A DNA stretch of 64,000 nucleotides from NCBI RefSeq assembly GCF_008729015.1, contig NZ_RKSM01000001.1, forward strand, positions 1,612,001 to 1,676,000, in the 5' to 3' direction. Made by a program: the position numbers and the translations under genes. The notes under the pieces are model-generated. The model ran no database searches and was not told the DNA's origin. It saw only the letters and a list, made by a program, of their open reading frames with translations. The DNA is from Haloarcula sp. CBA1129 (GTDB lineage: Archaea; Halobacteriota; Halobacteria; Halobacteriales; Haloarculaceae). Below, piece by piece: positions 21,600 to 29,937 of this stretch. Position 1 is the first letter of the stretch; each line of letters opens with the position of its first letter.

Positions 21600-21615
21600 T
21601 TTACCGCTCGGTAAA
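21600..21615. promoter_or_regulatory. Palindromic operator at the pirin start
   Basis: TTTACC and GGTAAA form a perfect inverted repeat with a four-base spacer (GCTC), ending 11 bases before the pirin ATG at 21627. In a leaderless gene it would lie between the TATA region and the start site, a repressor-type location. The same palindrome, with longer arms, precedes the FAD protein gene at 22423. Confidence 0.6.
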
Positions 21616-21626
21616 CAAAGAGATGC

Positions 21627-22376
21627 ATGACCGAGAGCGACTCGCAGATGCCGGCTGACAGGCCGATATCCGGAGAGACGGTTCGCCACGGGACGGGCGT
21701 GAATTCGAACCGAGCGTTTCCGACGGACGGCTATCCGCACAACCTTGACCCGTTCGTCCTGTTCGAGCAGTTCTACATCGACCCCGAGAAGGGGTTCCCG
21801 ATGCATCCCCACCGCGGGTTCGAGATAGTCTCGTACATGATCGAGGGCGGCATGGAACACGAGGATTCACTCGGCGTCACGAACACGGCATACGAATGCG
21901 ATGTGATGCGAATTACGGCTGGGAGCGGGATACGTCACTCCGAGTTCCCTGCAGATGGGCGGGCCTGTACCGGGCTGCAGCTCTGGGTGAATCTGCCGCA
22001 GGCGGCGAAGGACGCTGACCCGGACTACGTCGACGCGACAGCTACTGAACTGCCGACAGAAGATCTGAACGGCGCGACAGTTACGACAGTTATCGGCGAC
22101 GGGTCGCCGATAAGCCTCTATACGCCGATGGAGTATCTGGACGTGTCCGTGACCGACGCGTGGACGTGGTCGGTTCCGGAGGAGTGGTCCGGATTTCTCT
22201 ACGGTGTTGACGGCGACGGGTCAGTCGGGGGACAGTCGTTCACTGCCGGTGATGTCCTACCGGTCACTGACGCCCAGTCAGTAACACTTCGGAGCAAGGA
22301 GTCGCTTCGTATCGTCGCCGTTTCGGGTCGTCCACACGGGGAGCCGATTCGACAGCGCGGACCGTACGTTCTGTAA
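21627..22376 (+). CDS. Pirin-family cupin protein
   Basis: A 249-residue bicupin of the pirin family. The N-terminal cupin carries the metal ligands His60, His62 (FPMHPHRGFE), His104 and Glu106 (GIRHSEF). Family members bind iron; some are quercetin dioxygenases and others are redox-sensing cofactors, so the role here is open. A C-terminal cupin (about 130-230) lacks the metal residues, as usual. The gene shares a palindromic operator with the FAD protein gene downstream and sits in a redox cluster with it, DoxX and a TetR regulator. Confidence 0.88.
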   Translation: MTESDSQMPADRPISGETVRHGTGVNSNRAFPTDGYPHNLDPFVLFEQFYIDPEKGFPMHPHRGFEIVSYMIEGGMEHEDSLGVTNTAYECDVMRITAGSGIRHSEFPADGRACTGLQLWVNLPQAAKDADPDYVDATATELPTEDLNGATVTTVIGDGSPISLYTPMEYLDVSVTDAWTWSVPEEWSGFLYGVDGDGSVGGQSFTAGDVLPVTDAQSVTLRSKESLRIVAVSGRPHGEPIRQRGPYVL

Positions 22377-22422: not shown

Positions 22423-22444
22423 AGTTTTACCAGATGGTAAAACT
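22423..22444. promoter_or_regulatory. 22-base palindromic operator before the FAD protein gene
   Basis: AGTTTTACC (22423-22431) and GGTAAAACT (22436-22444) are perfect inverted repeats around AGAT, ending 28 bases before the ATG at 22473, over the expected BRE/TATA position. The inner TTTACC-N4-GGTAAA core is identical to the site before the pirin gene. A dimeric regulator, perhaps the TetR protein encoded at 23564, is the likely ligand. Confidence 0.7.
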
Positions 22445-22472: not shown

Positions 22473-23033
22473 ATGGCAGATGTAGCAGTTGTCGGCGGTG
22501 GCCCCGCCGGACTGAGTGCGGCACAGTACGCAGCGAAAAACGACCTCGAAACGATTGTCTTCGACACGGACGAGTCGTGGATGCACAAGGCCCACCTGTT
22601 CAACTACCCCGGTGTGCGGAGCATCAGCGGCGATGAGTTCCTCACAATTGCTCGCGGCCAGACCCGCGACCGTGGCGCAACACTGCACGAGACAGAGGTC
22701 ACGGATATCGAACAGACTGACGACGGCTTCGTCCTGACGACCGACGACGACGAGTACACCGCGGCGTACGTCGTCCTCGCGACTGGTGGCGACCGGAGCC
22801 TCGCTGCGGACCTTGGCTGTGCGTTCACCGATGAAGATGTCGTCGACGTGACCGTCGACATGGAAACGTCCGTCGAGAACGTGTACGCGACCGGTGCGAT
22901 GGGTCGAGCGGAGAAGTGGCAGGCGGTCATCGCAGCCGGTGACGGCGCGGCCGCCGTCCTCGACATTCTCTCGAAGGAGAAAGGCGAGTACTACCACGAC
23001 TTCGACATGCCGTCGGACGTACCGGAGCTCTAA
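22473..23033 (+). CDS. Half-size FAD-binding protein related to thioredoxin reductase
   Basis: A 186-residue flavoprotein. The dinucleotide fold VAVVGGGPAGLSAAQYA is at residues 4-20, followed by FNYPGV and later by ENVYATGAM, the second FAD motif of the thioredoxin reductase family. Normal TrxR has about 310 residues with an NADPH domain and a CxxC pair between the two halves. Here the chain passes from VVLATGG almost directly to the second FAD half, so both the NADPH domain and CxxC are absent. It probably binds FAD but needs another partner as electron donor or acceptor. It is controlled by a palindromic operator. Confidence 0.85.
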   Translation: MADVAVVGGGPAGLSAAQYAAKNDLETIVFDTDESWMHKAHLFNYPGVRSISGDEFLTIARGQTRDRGATLHETEVTDIEQTDDGFVLTTDDDEYTAAYVVLATGGDRSLAADLGCAFTDEDVVDVTVDMETSVENVYATGAMGRAEKWQAVIAAGDGAAAVLDILSKEKGEYYHDFDMPSDVPEL

Positions 23034-23127: not shown

Positions 23128-23541
23128 ATGGCACCCGAACTCGACGTCGTGTTGCTCGTCGTCGGACGTGTCCTCTTCGGTGGCGTGCTCGCCTTCACCG
23201 GCCTGAGCCACTTCACGCAGACCGAGCAGATGGCCGGCTACGCCGAGTACAAGGGCCTTCCAGCGCCGAAGTTCTCCGTCCTCGCGTCCGGCGGCCTCCT
23301 CATCCTCGGTGGAATCGGCGTGACCGTGGGCATCTTCCCCGTCGTCGCGGCAGTCGCGCTCGCAGCGTTCCTGATCGTCTCGGCTGTTGCGATGCACGAC
23401 TTCTGGGCCGTGCCGGACGAGGACCGACAGGACGAACTGAACAGTTTCCTGAAGAACGTGACGCTCGCGGGCGGTGCACTTGTCGTCGCGGCGTCTGCAA
23501 CCGGAACGTGGGCGCTCAGCGTCGGTATCAGCCCCGTCTAG
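23128..23541 (+). CDS. DoxX-family membrane protein
   Basis: A 137-residue integral membrane protein with four hydrophobic helices and the DoxX hallmark VGRVLFGGVLAFTGLSHF followed by a short cytoplasmic KGLPAPK loop. DoxX-type proteins accompany quinone- or thiol-linked redox enzymes; the biochemical role is unsettled. It lies 94 bases after the FAD protein gene and is convergent with the TetR regulator gene (22 bases between stop codons), which suggests a common redox or stress function. Confidence 0.82.
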   Translation: MAPELDVVLLVVGRVLFGGVLAFTGLSHFTQTEQMAGYAEYKGLPAPKFSVLASGGLLILGGIGVTVGIFPVVAAVALAAFLIVSAVAMHDFWAVPDEDRQDELNSFLKNVTLAGGALVVAASATGTWALSVGISPV

Positions 23542-23563: not shown

Positions 23564-24178
23564 TTACTGCGGCGGGTACAGCGAGTCGAGAATGAAGTCA
23601 TCAACGGCACGCTTGGCTTCGGCAGGGGCGTCGTCGTGGCCGAGAGCGATTCGCCGACCTCGGGCCGCGTGAATTACGTCGGTGATGAGTTGGCCCATCA
23701 GGTCAGCATCGACATCGCGAAACGTGCCCTGCTCGATCCCGTCTTCGATGACCGTCGAGATGCTTTCGCGAAGGCGGTCGTAGTGCTCGTTGAACAGCGC
23801 TCGATGCTCGTCGTCGTTTTGCGCGTAGGCGTACAGTTCGTGGTACACCTTCATGCGGTCCCAGTGCGAGAAGTCGTCGAACTCCGGGCCGAACAGGCAC
23901 CGGTCGATACGTACATCGAGCTCTGTTCGGGGGTCGGTCTCGTCGTCGACCTCGACACTGCCCTCGTACTGGTCGATAACGTACTCCAGAAACGAAGAGA
24001 TCAGGTCGTACTTGCCGTCGAAATGATAGTGAATCACCTGCCGAGACATGTCCATCTCCTCGCCGATGTCCCGGACCCGCAAGTCCTTGTAGCCGTGCTT
24101 GCTCAGCGCCCGAAAGGTGGCCTCCATAATGACCTCACGGGTGTCTTGTGGCGTGCTCTGCCCGTCCGATTCACTCAT
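23564..24178 (-). CDS. TetR/AcrR-family transcriptional regulator
   Basis: A 204-residue regulator. Residues about 14-60 form the TetR helix-turn-helix (IMEATFRALSKHGYKDLRVR, then MSRQVIHYHFDGKYDL). The rest is an all-helical ligand-binding and dimer domain with TetR_C-like spacing. The start at 24178 (MSESDGQSTP) excludes a short upstream extension. It is a candidate binder of the TTTACC-N4-GGTAAA palindromes upstream of the nearby pirin and FAD genes. Its own promoter lacks that palindrome, so the link is only positional. Confidence 0.88.
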   Translation of the reverse strand: MSESDGQSTPQDTREVIMEATFRALSKHGYKDLRVRDIGEEMDMSRQVIHYHFDGKYDLISSFLEYVIDQYEGSVEVDDETDPRTELDVRIDRCLFGPEFDDFSHWDRMKVYHELYAYAQNDDEHRALFNEHYDRLRESISTVIEDGIEQGTFRDVDADLMGQLITDVIHAARGRRIALGHDDAPAEAKRAVDDFILDSLYPPQ

Positions 24179-24284
24179 GGCTACTGTCTTGGCATGGTGG
24201 ACACATATCGGTTTCTCACTCCGCACCGGGGCCGGCGGGCCGCCATGCGGTGTGTCTCGGTGCCCGGCTGTGGCCGCGTCTCAC

Positions 24285-25139: not shown

Positions 25140-26381
25140 CTACACGAGCGGGTCACACAGCGCCCACTCGTCCGTCTCAGGGTCGAGGTTCGAGGGTTCC
25201 GCGCCACGGTCTGTCACAATGCCGGCATGGTAGTAGATCGCCTTCAGTTGGAAGACGGTGGGCGAGTGATAGACACTGCCGTCAGTGAGTTCCGAGCGGC
25301 GGAGCTCGCCGTCGCCGGTCAGTACGCGCTGGCGAACGGCTTCGTCGCCCCGGAGGAACAGTTCGACGGTGAACTCCGGGTGGAGCGCGTGGAGGTACTC
25401 GACGAACTCGACGAGCGACGGGGCGTCGTAGCCGTCCCGGTGGCAGGCGTAGAGGCCGTCGGTGAGCAGCTCCGTGGCCGGGTAGTCCGAGACGACGCGA
25501 CGGACGAGCTGACCCCACCGTGGCGCGATGTCGATGAACCGCTTGCGGGAGCGTTGCCAGTCCTCGAACCGCCGGATTGCGGCGTCGAGGTCGCCGACCG
25601 TCCGGAGCGCGAAGCGGACAACTTCCCGACCCAGCGGTGTCAGCGTGAGCGAACCCTCGCCGATGTCGATCAGCTGCAGGAACTCCGCCCCGGCGATAGC
25701 GCCGTCGACGGCCCCGACGACGTGAGAGGCAAGCAGGTCCCGTGCGTCGCCGTCGTGATGGACGGCCAGCGGCACCGCGACGTAGTTCTTGGGATGGTTG
25801 AGCCCGAAGTTCTGGTCGGCGACGCCCTGAGCGCTGGCTTGGAACCGGATGGCCGACGCGGCGTCCATCGACCCGTGGCCGACCACACGTGGCTGTTCCA
25901 GAATGGAGACCGAGCCGTCGCGTTCGACGCCCAGCACGCCGACGTTGAGCTCTCGGGCCATCGTCCGCGCAGCGGTGGAGATGCCGCTTCGGGGTGCAGT
26001 CAGGAAGGCGACGTTCGCCTCGTTGAGCCGGTCATAGGCTTGTACGACGCCGCGCTCGGCGTCAACGGCACCGGTGCCGGTGTAGCCTTTCGCCTCGACG
26101 GCGATCAGCGGCGGCCGGTCCCCGAGCCGGTCAACGGACAACAGGTCCGTCGAGAGCGTCTGCACGCCGACGAGATCGGGATAGCCCGTTCCGACCTGCA
26201 CGTGGTTGAACGGCGCGAGCGTCGCCTGTACCGACGCCTCGATGGGCGTATCGTCCAGCCAGCGCCGCTGTGCGAACTGCGTGTCCGCGACGACGTAGGC
26301 GTCTTCGCGCTCCGCGAACATCCGGTCTTTCGTCCGGGCGAGTACCTGTGGCTCGGAGAGCCCCGACGCCGCTGTGGCCAT
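25140..26381 (-). CDS. Haloarchaeal protein with a PD-(D/E)xK nuclease-like core
   Basis: A 413-residue soluble protein. Its N-terminal third shows the pattern of a restriction-endonuclease-like fold: Pro68-Asp69 in GTGYPDLVGV and Glu96-x-Lys98 in LIAVEAKGYTG at the usual spacing, followed by an alternating strand-helix pattern (AVDAERGVVQAYDRLNEAN). Residues about 225-260 resemble a winged helix (DIGEGSLTLTPLGREVVRFA). The active-site triad is therefore plausible but not proven. It has no obvious toxin, methylase or helicase neighbour. A restriction or repair role would be inference. Confidence 0.55.
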   Translation of the reverse strand: MATAASGLSEPQVLARTKDRMFAEREDAYVVADTQFAQRRWLDDTPIEASVQATLAPFNHVQVGTGYPDLVGVQTLSTDLLSVDRLGDRPPLIAVEAKGYTGTGAVDAERGVVQAYDRLNEANVAFLTAPRSGISTAARTMARELNVGVLGVERDGSVSILEQPRVVGHGSMDAASAIRFQASAQGVADQNFGLNHPKNYVAVPLAVHHDGDARDLLASHVVGAVDGAIAGAEFLQLIDIGEGSLTLTPLGREVVRFALRTVGDLDAAIRRFEDWQRSRKRFIDIAPRWGQLVRRVVSDYPATELLTDGLYACHRDGYDAPSLVEFVEYLHALHPEFTVELFLRGDEAVRQRVLTGDGELRRSELTDGSVYHSPTVFQLKAIYYHAGIVTDRGAEPSNLDPETDEWALCDPLV

Positions 26382-27035: not shown

Positions 27036-28091
27036 TCAGTACTCGTGGAGGGGCTGCTGGCGGATTTTAGCCCGTAGCTCCCCGATAGAGGGGTCGCCCT
27101 CGCCGCCAAACTGCTGTGTCACGGAGTGGACCTCCTCGCGGGAGATCTTGACGTTCCCCTGTTCGATAACGTCGGCGGGCCGCTCGCGGAGTTCACGAAT
27201 CGTCCCGACGGCCAGCAGGAACGGAATCGCCCACGCGGAGAGTGTGTTGCCGCGGGTCTCCGGCATTGCTTCGAGCCACGCTTGCGCGTCGTCGAGGTAG
27301 CCCTCCGCCCGCTCGGTGACCTGCTCGATGACGGGGACCAGCGAGTCGACGTTGTCGGTATCACTCACGTCGCTGTGGTCGAGCCCCTGCTCGTGGAGCA
27401 GTTCCAGCGGGAGATAGACGTTGTTCTCCTCTTCCATGTCCGTCGCGGCGTCCTTGGCGACGTTGACGAGTTGGAGCAGCAGGGCAAACGAGCGGGCGTT
27501 TTCCTCCATCTGGGCGATCTGCTCGTCGGTGGCTTCGTGCGAGACCAGCCCGGTCACCAGCGTGCCGACGGTGCCGGCGGCGTACCAGCAGTACTCTTCG
27601 AGTTCGTCGAGCGTCTTGATTCGCAGGCCGCCGGCATCGGCGTAGCGGTCGACGAACATCGCCATCCCGTCGACGAGTTCCCGGACCGGCCCGCGGATGG
27701 TCTGTGTGGAGTGGTCATCGAGCGTGTGAAACACGTCGACGATGCGCCCCGCGTTCTCGACGACTTCCCAGTCCGCGTTCGTCGTCGTGGGAATCCACTC
27801 TTCGACGGCGTCGTGGAACGATGAGACAGTTGTCGCGCTAGATGGTTCGAGCGAGCGGCTGTACGTCTGCAGGAGTTCGGTCTGTACCGCTGGAGGGAGG
27901 TGACCAGCGTCCTCGATCGTGTCAGCCACACGGCAGAGAAGATAGCCCAGACAGATGTCCCGGGCCATCGGTTCGTTGAGTTCCGAAATTGTGAGACTAA
28001 ACGTCCGCGACACACGATGGACGGCATCGTAGCACCACTCGATGTCTTCCGAAGACGACCGGTCTGTGTGGTTCTGAGACATTCCCGACAT
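27036..28091 (-). CDS. Squalene/phytoene synthase family, squalene synthase type
   Basis: A 351-residue trans-isoprenyl diphosphate synthase of the head-to-head class. Aspartate-rich motifs are visible: D57TIED61 in LLCRVADTIED and D214AATD218 in NVAKDAATD. The flanking sequences (RVSRTFSLTISEL, EYCWYAAGTVG) resemble squalene synthase more than CrtB, so farnesyl diphosphate to squalene is the likely reaction, feeding menaquinone-associated isoprenoids of the membrane. The phosphomevalonate decarboxylase gene at 37939 supplies the same pathway but is not adjacent. Confidence 0.85.
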   Translation of the reverse strand: MSGMSQNHTDRSSSEDIEWCYDAVHRVSRTFSLTISELNEPMARDICLGYLLCRVADTIEDAGHLPPAVQTELLQTYSRSLEPSSATTVSSFHDAVEEWIPTTTNADWEVVENAGRIVDVFHTLDDHSTQTIRGPVRELVDGMAMFVDRYADAGGLRIKTLDELEEYCWYAAGTVGTLVTGLVSHEATDEQIAQMEENARSFALLLQLVNVAKDAATDMEEENNVYLPLELLHEQGLDHSDVSDTDNVDSLVPVIEQVTERAEGYLDDAQAWLEAMPETRGNTLSAWAIPFLLAVGTIRELRERPADVIEQGNVKISREEVHSVTQQFGGEGDPSIGELRAKIRQQPLHEY

Positions 28092-28602: not shown

Positions 28603-29937
28603 ATGACAACTGAAGGGCTCGGCGAGGGCAGCCCCGGAACGGGGGCCCGCGCCGGTTGGACACGCGAGCAGGCGGAGCGGATCAAGCGGACCGGCGACAC
28701 CGTCGCTCCCATCGTCTACCCGCCCGCGACCGAACAGATCCCGGAGGTTCACATCTGGGACACTTGGTTTCTCCGCAACCGCGACGGCACGCTGGCGACG
28801 GTCGACGGCTACCGGGTCTGTTTCTCTCTGACCGCTCCGTCGGACCTGCTCCCGGGCAAGCGCCACGACGTGGCGACTATCCGCTGTTTCTACTCCGAGG
28901 ACGGCCGCAACTGGCACAACGCCGGCCCGGTGTTCGAGGACGCCCTTGGCCAGCGCCAGTGGGCCGGGTCCGCACTGTACGACGACGGCAGCATCTATCT
29001 GTTCTACACCGCGGCCGGCGAGGAGGGGGCCGACGACCTGACCTACACACAGCGAATCGTCGGGGCCGGCGGCGGCAGCATCGACACGGCCGACGGGTTC
29101 GCTCTCTCGGGGCCGTGGACCCATCACGAACTGCTGACGCCGGACGGCGAGCGCTACGAGCGTGAAGATCAGTCCCGCGAAATGATATACACCTTCCGCG
29201 ACCCGTGGTTCTTCGAGGACCCCGAGACGGGCGAGACGTGGCTCCTGTTCGAGGCGAATACGCCGGTACCCGAAGGGAGCGACGTCTGTGGCGGCGACGG
29301 CGCATTGCAGGAGTTCAACGGCAGCGTGGGCATCGCCCGCTCGCCGACGGGCGACCCGCTGGCGTGGGAGCTCGAAGACCCGCTGCTTGACGCCGTCGGC
29401 GTCAATCAGGAACTCGAACGGCCCCATATCGTGTACCGCGACGGGCTGTACTACCTGTTTATTTCCAGCCATCTCCACACGTTCGCGCCGGGGCTGGAGG
29501 GCTTCGACGCGCTGTACGGCTTCGTCGCCGAGGACCTCCGGGGCGACTACGTCCCGCTGAACGAGTCCGGCCTCGTCGCCACGAACCCCGCGAACGCGCC
29601 GTTCCAGTCGTACTCGTGGATGGCGTTTCCCCACGACGACGAGGTGCTGGTCCAGAGTTTCTTCAACTACTACGACTTCGACGGCGAGACGCTGGACGAA
29701 ATCGCCCATCTGTCTGAGTCCGAGCAGATGCGCCGGTTCGGCGGCTCGCTCGGCCCGACGCTTCGGCTCGATGTCGAAGGGAGCCGGACACAGATCACTG
29801 GGACGCTCGGGCACTGGCACATCCCACTGGACGGCGAGACGCTCCCGCCGACGGACCGTGAACTGATCCGGCGCGGGAAAAGCAACGTTTCCGGCTCCAG
29901 CAACTACGGCGCGCGAACCGGGACGCAATCGGAGTAA
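28603..29937 (+). CDS. Glycoside hydrolase family 68 (levansucrase/fructosyltransferase type)
   Basis: A 444-residue GH68 enzyme acting on sucrose or fructans. The catalytic set is visible: nucleophile Asp53 in HIWDTWFL, transition-state Asp200 in TFRDPW, and the acid/base Glu272 in NQELERPHIV, with Arg199 before Asp200 matching the levansucrase sucrose-binding Arg. No signal peptide or Tat motif was found, so it would be cytoplasmic, unlike most bacterial levansucrases. It converges with the GH32 gene, which suggests one fructan or sucrose module. Whether it makes levan or only hydrolyses sucrose cannot be read from sequence. Confidence 0.9.
   Translation: MTTEGLGEGSPGTGARAGWTREQAERIKRTGDTVAPIVYPPATEQIPEVHIWDTWFLRNRDGTLATVDGYRVCFSLTAPSDLLPGKRHDVATIRCFYSEDGRNWHNAGPVFEDALGQRQWAGSALYDDGSIYLFYTAAGEEGADDLTYTQRIVGAGGGSIDTADGFALSGPWTHHELLTPDGERYEREDQSREMIYTFRDPWFFEDPETGETWLLFEANTPVPEGSDVCGGDGALQEFNGSVGIARSPTGDPLAWELEDPLLDAVGVNQELERPHIVYRDGLYYLFISSHLHTFAPGLEGFDALYGFVAEDLRGDYVPLNESGLVATNPANAPFQSYSWMAFPHDDEVLVQSFFNYYDFDGETLDEIAHLSESEQMRRFGGSLGPTLRLDVEGSRTQITGTLGHWHIPLDGETLPPTDRELIRRGKSNVSGSSNYGARTGTQSE

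Follow-up and report, generated by a model that had tools for sequence, protein, structure and literature searches.

A candidate TetR-controlled module around a short, FAD-only relative of thioredoxin reductase in Haloarcula

Results and Discussion

In Haloarcula sp. CBA1129, a flavoprotein related to thioredoxin reductase (TrxR) but reduced to its FAD-binding half is encoded next to a pirin, and the promoters of the two genes have a palindrome in common. This common control is what is new here. Together with an adjacent TetR-type regulator, the shared operator is the strongest evidence on the function of the flavoprotein, and it was absent from the original prediction made for this gene. Our best explanation, to which we give an even chance, is a TetR-controlled module against quinol or redox-cycling stress, built around a stand-alone FAD domain of the type of the Thermus thermophilus protein TTHA0370. 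The genes lie within a stretch of 64,000 nucleotides (hereafter, the window), with the following features:

21600-21615 (+): putative pirin operator, palindrome TTTACCGCTCGGTAAA, ending in front of the pirin ATG at a distance of 27 nt from its first base
21627-22376 (+): pirin-family bicupin, 249 aa (Pfam E 1.2e-22; PDB pirins E 1.7e-39)
22426-22441 (+): putative flavoprotein operator, palindrome TTTACCAGATGGTAAA, 47 nt upstream of the flavoprotein ATG
22473-23033 (+): short FAD-only TrxR-related protein, 186 aa, ATG start (ORF, Pfam, PDB match)
23128-23541 (+): DoxX-family membrane protein, 137 aa (Pfam E 1.6e-10), downstream of the flavoprotein gene and without an operator of its own
23564-24226 (-): TetR-type regulator, 220 aa as called (PF00440, TetR_N, E 8.4e-10)

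The Pfam matches confirm that a pirin and a DoxX gene flank the flavoprotein gene, as originally predicted. Elsewhere in the window, a squalene/phytoene synthase gene (27036-28091) lies beside a gene for a glycoside hydrolase family 68 protein (28603-29937; levansucrase or invertase, E 4.5e-72), and a 413-aa ORF at 25140-26381 (-) has no Pfam match at 0.001.

Anatomy of the flavoprotein

The flavoprotein matches Pfam Pyr_redox_2 (E 1.5e-18), and reaches 98 bits against the NCBIfam thioredoxin-disulfide reductase model TIGR01292, whose cut-off is 343. When aligned with a full-length TrxR (5j60, 320 aa), its residues 3-112 fall on 10-123 and its residues 126-164 on 265-303; approximately 140 residues, corresponding to the NADPH domain, are therefore missing, and the two FAD half-domains are directly joined, with the CxxC redox pair gone. 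C116 is the only cysteine of the protein, and it is near-invariant across the flavoprotein alignment (48 of 50 rows). The ORF and the alignment thus agree with the original description of a 186-residue protein left with two FAD half-domains, lacking both the NADPH domain and CxxC. Judging from this anatomy, the claim that it would be unable to work as a normal NADPH-thioredoxin reductase can also be upheld, and canonical TrxRs with CATC and HRRE motifs are encoded elsewhere in the genome (L038 and L039).

The GxGxxG and ATG motifs are retained, while the AGD motif found near the C-terminus of canonical reductases reads ATGAM, which makes FAD binding uncertain. Moreover, the W36-Y45 stretch replaces the GGQLTLTxxVENxxG stretch of two canonical reductases; we take this stretch and the ATGAM position to be flavin contacts. 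Eight residues (W36, M37, H38, K39, H41, Y45, C116 and W149) are each conserved in at least 90% of the 50 flavoprotein rows.

Structure prediction, proposed as a check with the original prediction, gave an AlphaFold2 model of middling confidence (mean pLDDT 70.8; 48-52 for the other four models), in which loops 38-48 and 142-146, where the flavin is expected, are of low confidence. The best fold match of this model is TTHA0370, a FAD-only protein of 180 aa, with Foldseek TM scores of 0.85 and 0.88, and a VIA-align Z of 25.8 (rmsd 1.9, 175 aligned residues). In the next VIA-align rows (Z 21.6-24.4), the model matches the FAD domains of longer TrxR-type proteins. TTHA0370 (2cvj, 2ywl) is likewise the best solved match of the sequence, end-to-end, with an E of 1.5e-17.

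A genuine gene and its family

The loss of domains, as read in this one genome, could also come from a decayed or mis-assembled TrxR gene, and a sequencing deletion or a lack of homologues of such length elsewhere had been named as reasons to abandon the original prediction. Neither holds. The window protein and its 17 close relatives are all 186-188 aa long (18/18 rows), 31 of 32 distant rows measure 183-196 aa (the exception, L028, being a match in two frames), a homologue of 180 aa has been solved from Thermus, and the dN/dS of the window gene against the 17 relatives is 0.06-0.23. Decay or mis-assembly is thereby refuted, with practically no probability left to it: the flavoprotein is a conserved short protein under purifying selection, and not a sequencing error or a relic. 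Queries with the NADPH domains from two canonical TrxRs of the host found no match in the window at E<=1; a split reductase with its NADPH half nearby is thus ruled out. In other loci, these queries gave weak matches that mostly fell on the flavoprotein gene's own start, with one elsewhere in L002 (E 0.76).

Matches to the flavoprotein at E<=1e-50 were found in 276 of 292 Halobacteria genomes (best match per genome). Among the matches listed (to ~1.7e-73), each spans the query in 528-594 bases, too few to include an NADPH domain; one stop codon is present in three of them. Considering this distribution and the solved structure of TTHA0370, the short FAD-only form represents an already known type of protein, for which our literature searches found no function; they also retrieved nothing on the NADPH-binding domain of haloarchaeal thioredoxin reductase. 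Outside the class, 16 genomes of a 120-genome phylum sample matched at 1e-13, a threshold that weaker short forms would escape. As all these matches are confined to residues 1-112, and sit in open frames of 304-330 aa (except one of 166 aa), they represent ordinary reductases. Plasmids searched with the Thermus TTHA0370 sequence gave no match at 1e-15.

Within Halobacteria, a close group of 18 rows forms one clade (support 100/97), next to a second, broader and near-universal set at 60-70% identity. To look at the neighbours of this distant form, 35 loci were compared (L015-L029, L061-L080), and no common operon was revealed; a single recurrent gene family, present in 8 of these loci, mostly adjoins the flavoprotein gene, and its member in L018 is an SRPBCC (polyketide-cyclase) protein. 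The host's own copy of the distant form (C3:219680-221306; L033, L035) is split by an insertion with a DDE transposase (PF01609). In agreement with this, the other 15 genus genomes with the close form have two matches at E<=1e-50 and the host genome one, so that the window gene is the host's only intact copy at that level. Two further relatives were observed: one on C3 (L037), and one that is approximately 35% identical (L034:1483-2223; around 246 aa, extended at the C-terminus) and adjoins a gene for a 404-aa AAA ATPase, which we take to resemble proteasome-activating nucleotidase.

Neighbouring genes

We then focused our attention on the neighbours of the flavoprotein gene. The pirin gene adjoins it in 15 of 17 close loci, and is absent from L015 and L016 (flanks of ~5 kb, less in L017). 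In the genus, the close flavoprotein occurs in 16 of 32 genomes, and the pirin in the same 16. The aligned pirin rows keep the pattern MHxH...HSE, presumably the metal ligands. Therefore, of the two partners for which co-occurrence had been suggested as a check, the pirin is borne out. DoxX, which lies beside 6 of the 17 close relatives, all Haloarcula, with one additional weak match at 35%, was rejected as a core partner. Likening DoxX to MhqP was dropped as well, as MhqP is called an azoreductase in the literature text at hand.

The regulator has a TetR DNA-binding domain and probably starts at codon 17. One cysteine, placed before LxGP, is invariant in 17/17 rows. The gene is found in 16 of the 17 close loci (L015 has none within flanks of ~5 kb). 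In the genus, every one of the 16 genomes that have the close flavoprotein encodes the protein, as does 1 of the 16 that lack it (G294). Owing to the relatedness of these genomes, and to a completeness under 81% in three of those lacking the close flavoprotein, the genus counts do not represent independent trials. Literature joining pirin, DoxX and quinone, or Haloferax thioredoxin reductase and pirin, was not found; searches for TetR, Haloarcula and pirin returned exopolysaccharide work only, and 'pirin', 'DoxX' and 'FAD-dependent' do not appear in the consulted portions of two Haloferax stress papers.

A palindrome shared by the pirin and flavoprotein promoters

The exact palindrome TTTACC-N4-GGTAAA occurs twice in the 4.05 Mb genome, before the pirin and the flavoprotein genes. 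Allowing one mismatch adds one further site genome-wide, and a reversed-pattern control likewise gives one. With up to two mismatches, the window contains the same two sites only, against 0.35 expected, and two or more sites were obtained in 3 of 100 shuffles of the window. No site within two mismatches precedes the TetR gene of the window. In the close relatives, the site of the flavoprotein promoter is present in 17/17, with at most one mismatch, 47 nt upstream in 16 of them and 48 nt in L005, while no site within two mismatches is present in the distant loci L018-L029 (n=12). Two additional close loci, from Halopiger and Halarchaeum, have variant sites, with two mismatches and one mismatch respectively, 47 nt before the start. 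Moreover, a scan of the 32 genus genomes found 15 with exact sites, 24 in total and without exception at the pirin-flavoprotein locus, which means that no catabolic operon in the genus has an exact site. A palindrome at the putative target promoters and a TetR gene hence go together, and we propose, on sequence grounds, that the TetR-type protein binds the two palindromes.

Variant and separated loci were also observed. In G227, which has the flavoprotein and no exact site, variants with one and two mismatches lie at the pirin and the flavoprotein, respectively, and the TetR gene, on another contig, has a one-mismatch site just before it. G294, which lacks the pirin and a close flavoprotein, has one-mismatch sites between the TetR gene and a divergent amidohydrolase gene, and close to where a TatD-type hydrolase gene begins. 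G274 and G160, which belong to another genus, encode flavoproteins that are 83 and 82% identical; their pirin relatives (55 and 57%) are encoded 86 and 362 kb away, and an exact site again lies at the start of each pirin gene. Thus, the association of operator and pirin persists where pirin and flavoprotein genes are separated. L065 has a two-mismatch palindrome 48 nt before its flavoprotein gene. Finally, Halopiger and Halarchaeum have a superoxide dismutase (SOD) gene that adjoins the pirin-flavoprotein pair and is divergent from the pirin gene, and in Haladaptatus a SOD gene adjoins a distant flavoprotein gene.

The proposed operator across Halobacteria

In a class-wide scan, exact sites were found in 76 of 292 genomes, against 3 genomes for the reversed-pattern control. 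Subsequently, 17 chosen stretches were read (L084-L099 being left out), 16 of which contain a site within one mismatch, and 10 a TetR relative (64-78% identical). L115, chosen for its flavoprotein, has no site within one mismatch, and in L113 and L107 the site is present with no known partner tied to it. Genes at or beside the sites encode a CoA-transferase III, a thiolase, a 451-aa amidohydrolase and an FAA-hydrolase. In L100, L101, L102 and L104, from other haloarchaeal genera, the palindrome accompanies CoA-transferase III, thiolase (L101), amidohydrolase and FAA-hydrolase genes, with a TetR relative beside such a set in L100, L101 and L104, and this set may constitute a second regulon, of a catabolic kind.

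G249 and G255 each have a single cluster, which runs from the gene of the TetR orthologue through a site, the FAA-hydrolase gene, two more sites, the dioxygenase gene, the TatD-type hydrolase gene and a variant site to the short flavoprotein gene. The variant site lies 28 nt before the flavoprotein start; in G255, a pirin gene adjoins the TetR gene of the cluster. The best solved matches of the dioxygenase are MhqO (3oaj, 1.6e-56) and 2,6-dichloro-p-hydroquinone 1,2-dioxygenase (4huz, 4.4e-43). On a Halocatena plasmid, a TetR gene is followed by an MhqO-like gene that shares 77% identity with its G249 counterpart and has a two-mismatch palindrome 29 nt upstream. A pirin or a ring-cleaving dioxygenase, as looked for in a quinol response, is thus found under the operator in the window (pirin) and in G249, G255 and Halocatena (MhqO-like). 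No ring-cleaving dioxygenase was seen in the studied part of the window (~16.6-30 kb), and the host's MhqO-like protein (46%; C1:3269588) is encoded without the operator.

As the flavoproteins of G249 and G255 belong to the distant set, the operator has reached the flavoprotein at least twice, on well-supported branches, although the one-clade arrangement with all labelled rows together was rejected no more than borderline (p-AU 0.052, L065 unlabelled). Across 31 distant loci, amounting to 276 kb with L071 excluded, the relaxed pattern TTTAC-N6-GTAAA does not occur.

Proposed mechanism and alternative explanations

In the explanation that we prefer, a quinol or redox-cycling stress module, the adjacent TetR-type protein would bind TTTACC-N4-GGTAAA and repress the pirin and flavoprotein genes until an inducer arrives, and DoxX, where present downstream, would fall under the same repression; the conserved sites and their co-occurrence with the regulator give both steps good support. 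With moderate support, inducer and substrates would be quinols, quinones or related aromatic electrophiles that redox-cycle. A quinol-type response fits because a hydroquinone dioxygenase, an FAA-hydrolase, a pirin and sometimes a SOD lie under or beside one operator. More tentatively, loss of the NADPH domain might leave one flavin face open to electrons from a partner protein, most likely ferredoxin, or directly from a quinol; the flavin might then pass electrons to or from a quinone, with the pirin, as a cupin oxygenase, perhaps removing the aromatic compound. The original prediction had offered quinones, ferredoxin or a small thiol as electron sources; the wider regulon, as read from sequence, points to quinol-type substrates, and nothing in it singles out a thiol.

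The module could also answer general oxidant or hypohalous acid stress instead of quinols, with TetR sensing oxidation via its lone conserved cysteine, and flavoprotein and pirin acting in redox repair. We regard this as possible though doubtful. The invariance of that cysteine (17/17 rows) and the SOD genes adjoining the locus in Halopiger, Halarchaeum and, with the distant form, Haladaptatus are in its favor, as is the listing, in the consulted part of PMC5587910, of a Haloferax pirin among MsrA-dependent SAMP conjugates of DMSO-grown cells. However, the dioxygenase, FAA-hydrolase and CoA-transferase genes linked to the operator have catabolic functions, and the Halopiger SOD, used as a query, has no match in the 17 close loci (L001-L017). 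The CoA-transferase III, FAA-hydrolase, thiolase and amidohydrolase genes at or beside sites in other genera would suit a regulon for the use of an organic acid or aromatic compound as food, in which the flavoprotein would carry out a single step of catabolism, as a dehydrogenase acting on a CoA ester or a quinol, and would not be a stress protein; since all 24 exact genus sites are at the pirin-flavoprotein locus, we find this unlikely.

Still more improbable is that the flavoprotein works through pirin or TetR as a flavin-bound or apo sensor or scaffold, without electron transfer. The loss of the NADPH domain, the CxxC and the AGD aspartate speaks for such a role, but the conservation of aromatic and basic residues at the expected flavin site (W36, M37, H38, K39, H41 and W149, at least 90%) suggests an active site. 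As for the quinol-type module itself, its ligand may be another organic compound, as the operator and TetR relatives also occur with CoA-transferase III, thiolase and amidohydrolase genes, and the basic role of the family need not be a quinol response, as the operator is missing from most of the near-universal distant forms that were read. A broader view, in which the FAD half of TrxR alone gave rise to a nicotinamide-independent quinone/quinol oxidoreductase, near-universal in Halobacteria and recruited at least twice into a TetR hydroquinone-detoxification regulon, is speculative, and in its entirety we consider it rather unlikely. The shared operator offers a handle on the role of one branch of the family, naming a regulator, a partner (the pirin) and a class of candidate inducers.

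Comparison with known systems

TTHA0370 resembles the window flavoprotein in consisting of FAD half-domains only, without an NADPH domain. The window protein has the features of this type, namely a length of ~180-190 aa, FAD half-domains joined directly and a full-length match. The two are approximately 34% identical, and TTHA0370 lacks the WMHKAHLFNY motif and C116; the literature naming TTHA0370, in the portions available, gives no function for it. NADPH-thioredoxin reductase (TrxB) is homologous in the FAD domain, although the flavoprotein scores far under the TrxB model cut-off, and has the NADPH domain, CxxC and AGD that are missing from the flavoprotein. The ferredoxin-dependent flavin thioredoxin reductase (FFTR) has the same FAD-domain fold (Z ~24), but keeps a second domain with CxxC, which the flavoprotein lacks. 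According to the consulted part of PMC12796991, the TrxR-type flavin of FFTR can be reduced by ferredoxin without NADPH, and for this reason ferredoxin is our first guess for the donor, held with low confidence.

The closest parallels to the proposed control are MhqR of Bacillus subtilis and YhaJ of E. coli, both quinol-responsive regulators with a dedicated operator and with ring-cleaving dioxygenases or pirins as targets (PMC6798810 and PMC5031710, as far as their text was available). In the available text of PMC5031710, the E. coli pirin genes yhaK (strongly) and yhhW (weakly) are induced by hydroquinone via YhaJ, with quinol degradation as the proposed role of YhaK; in that of PMC6798810, the B. 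subtilis MhqR set comprises ring-cleaving dioxygenases and quinone reductases behind a conserved inverted repeat. No literature combining at least three of mhqO, mhqP, DoxX and hydroquinone was found. MhqR is of the MarR type and YhaJ of the LysR type, whereas the regulator in the window is a TetR, and the reductases of the Bacillus set are nitroreductases and azoreductases, unlike the window flavoprotein. Judged by its position among the other genes, the short flavoprotein would be the counterpart of a quinone reductase of the MhqR set. If true, the module would represent an archaeal parallel, assembled from different parts, to the bacterial quinone-response regulons.
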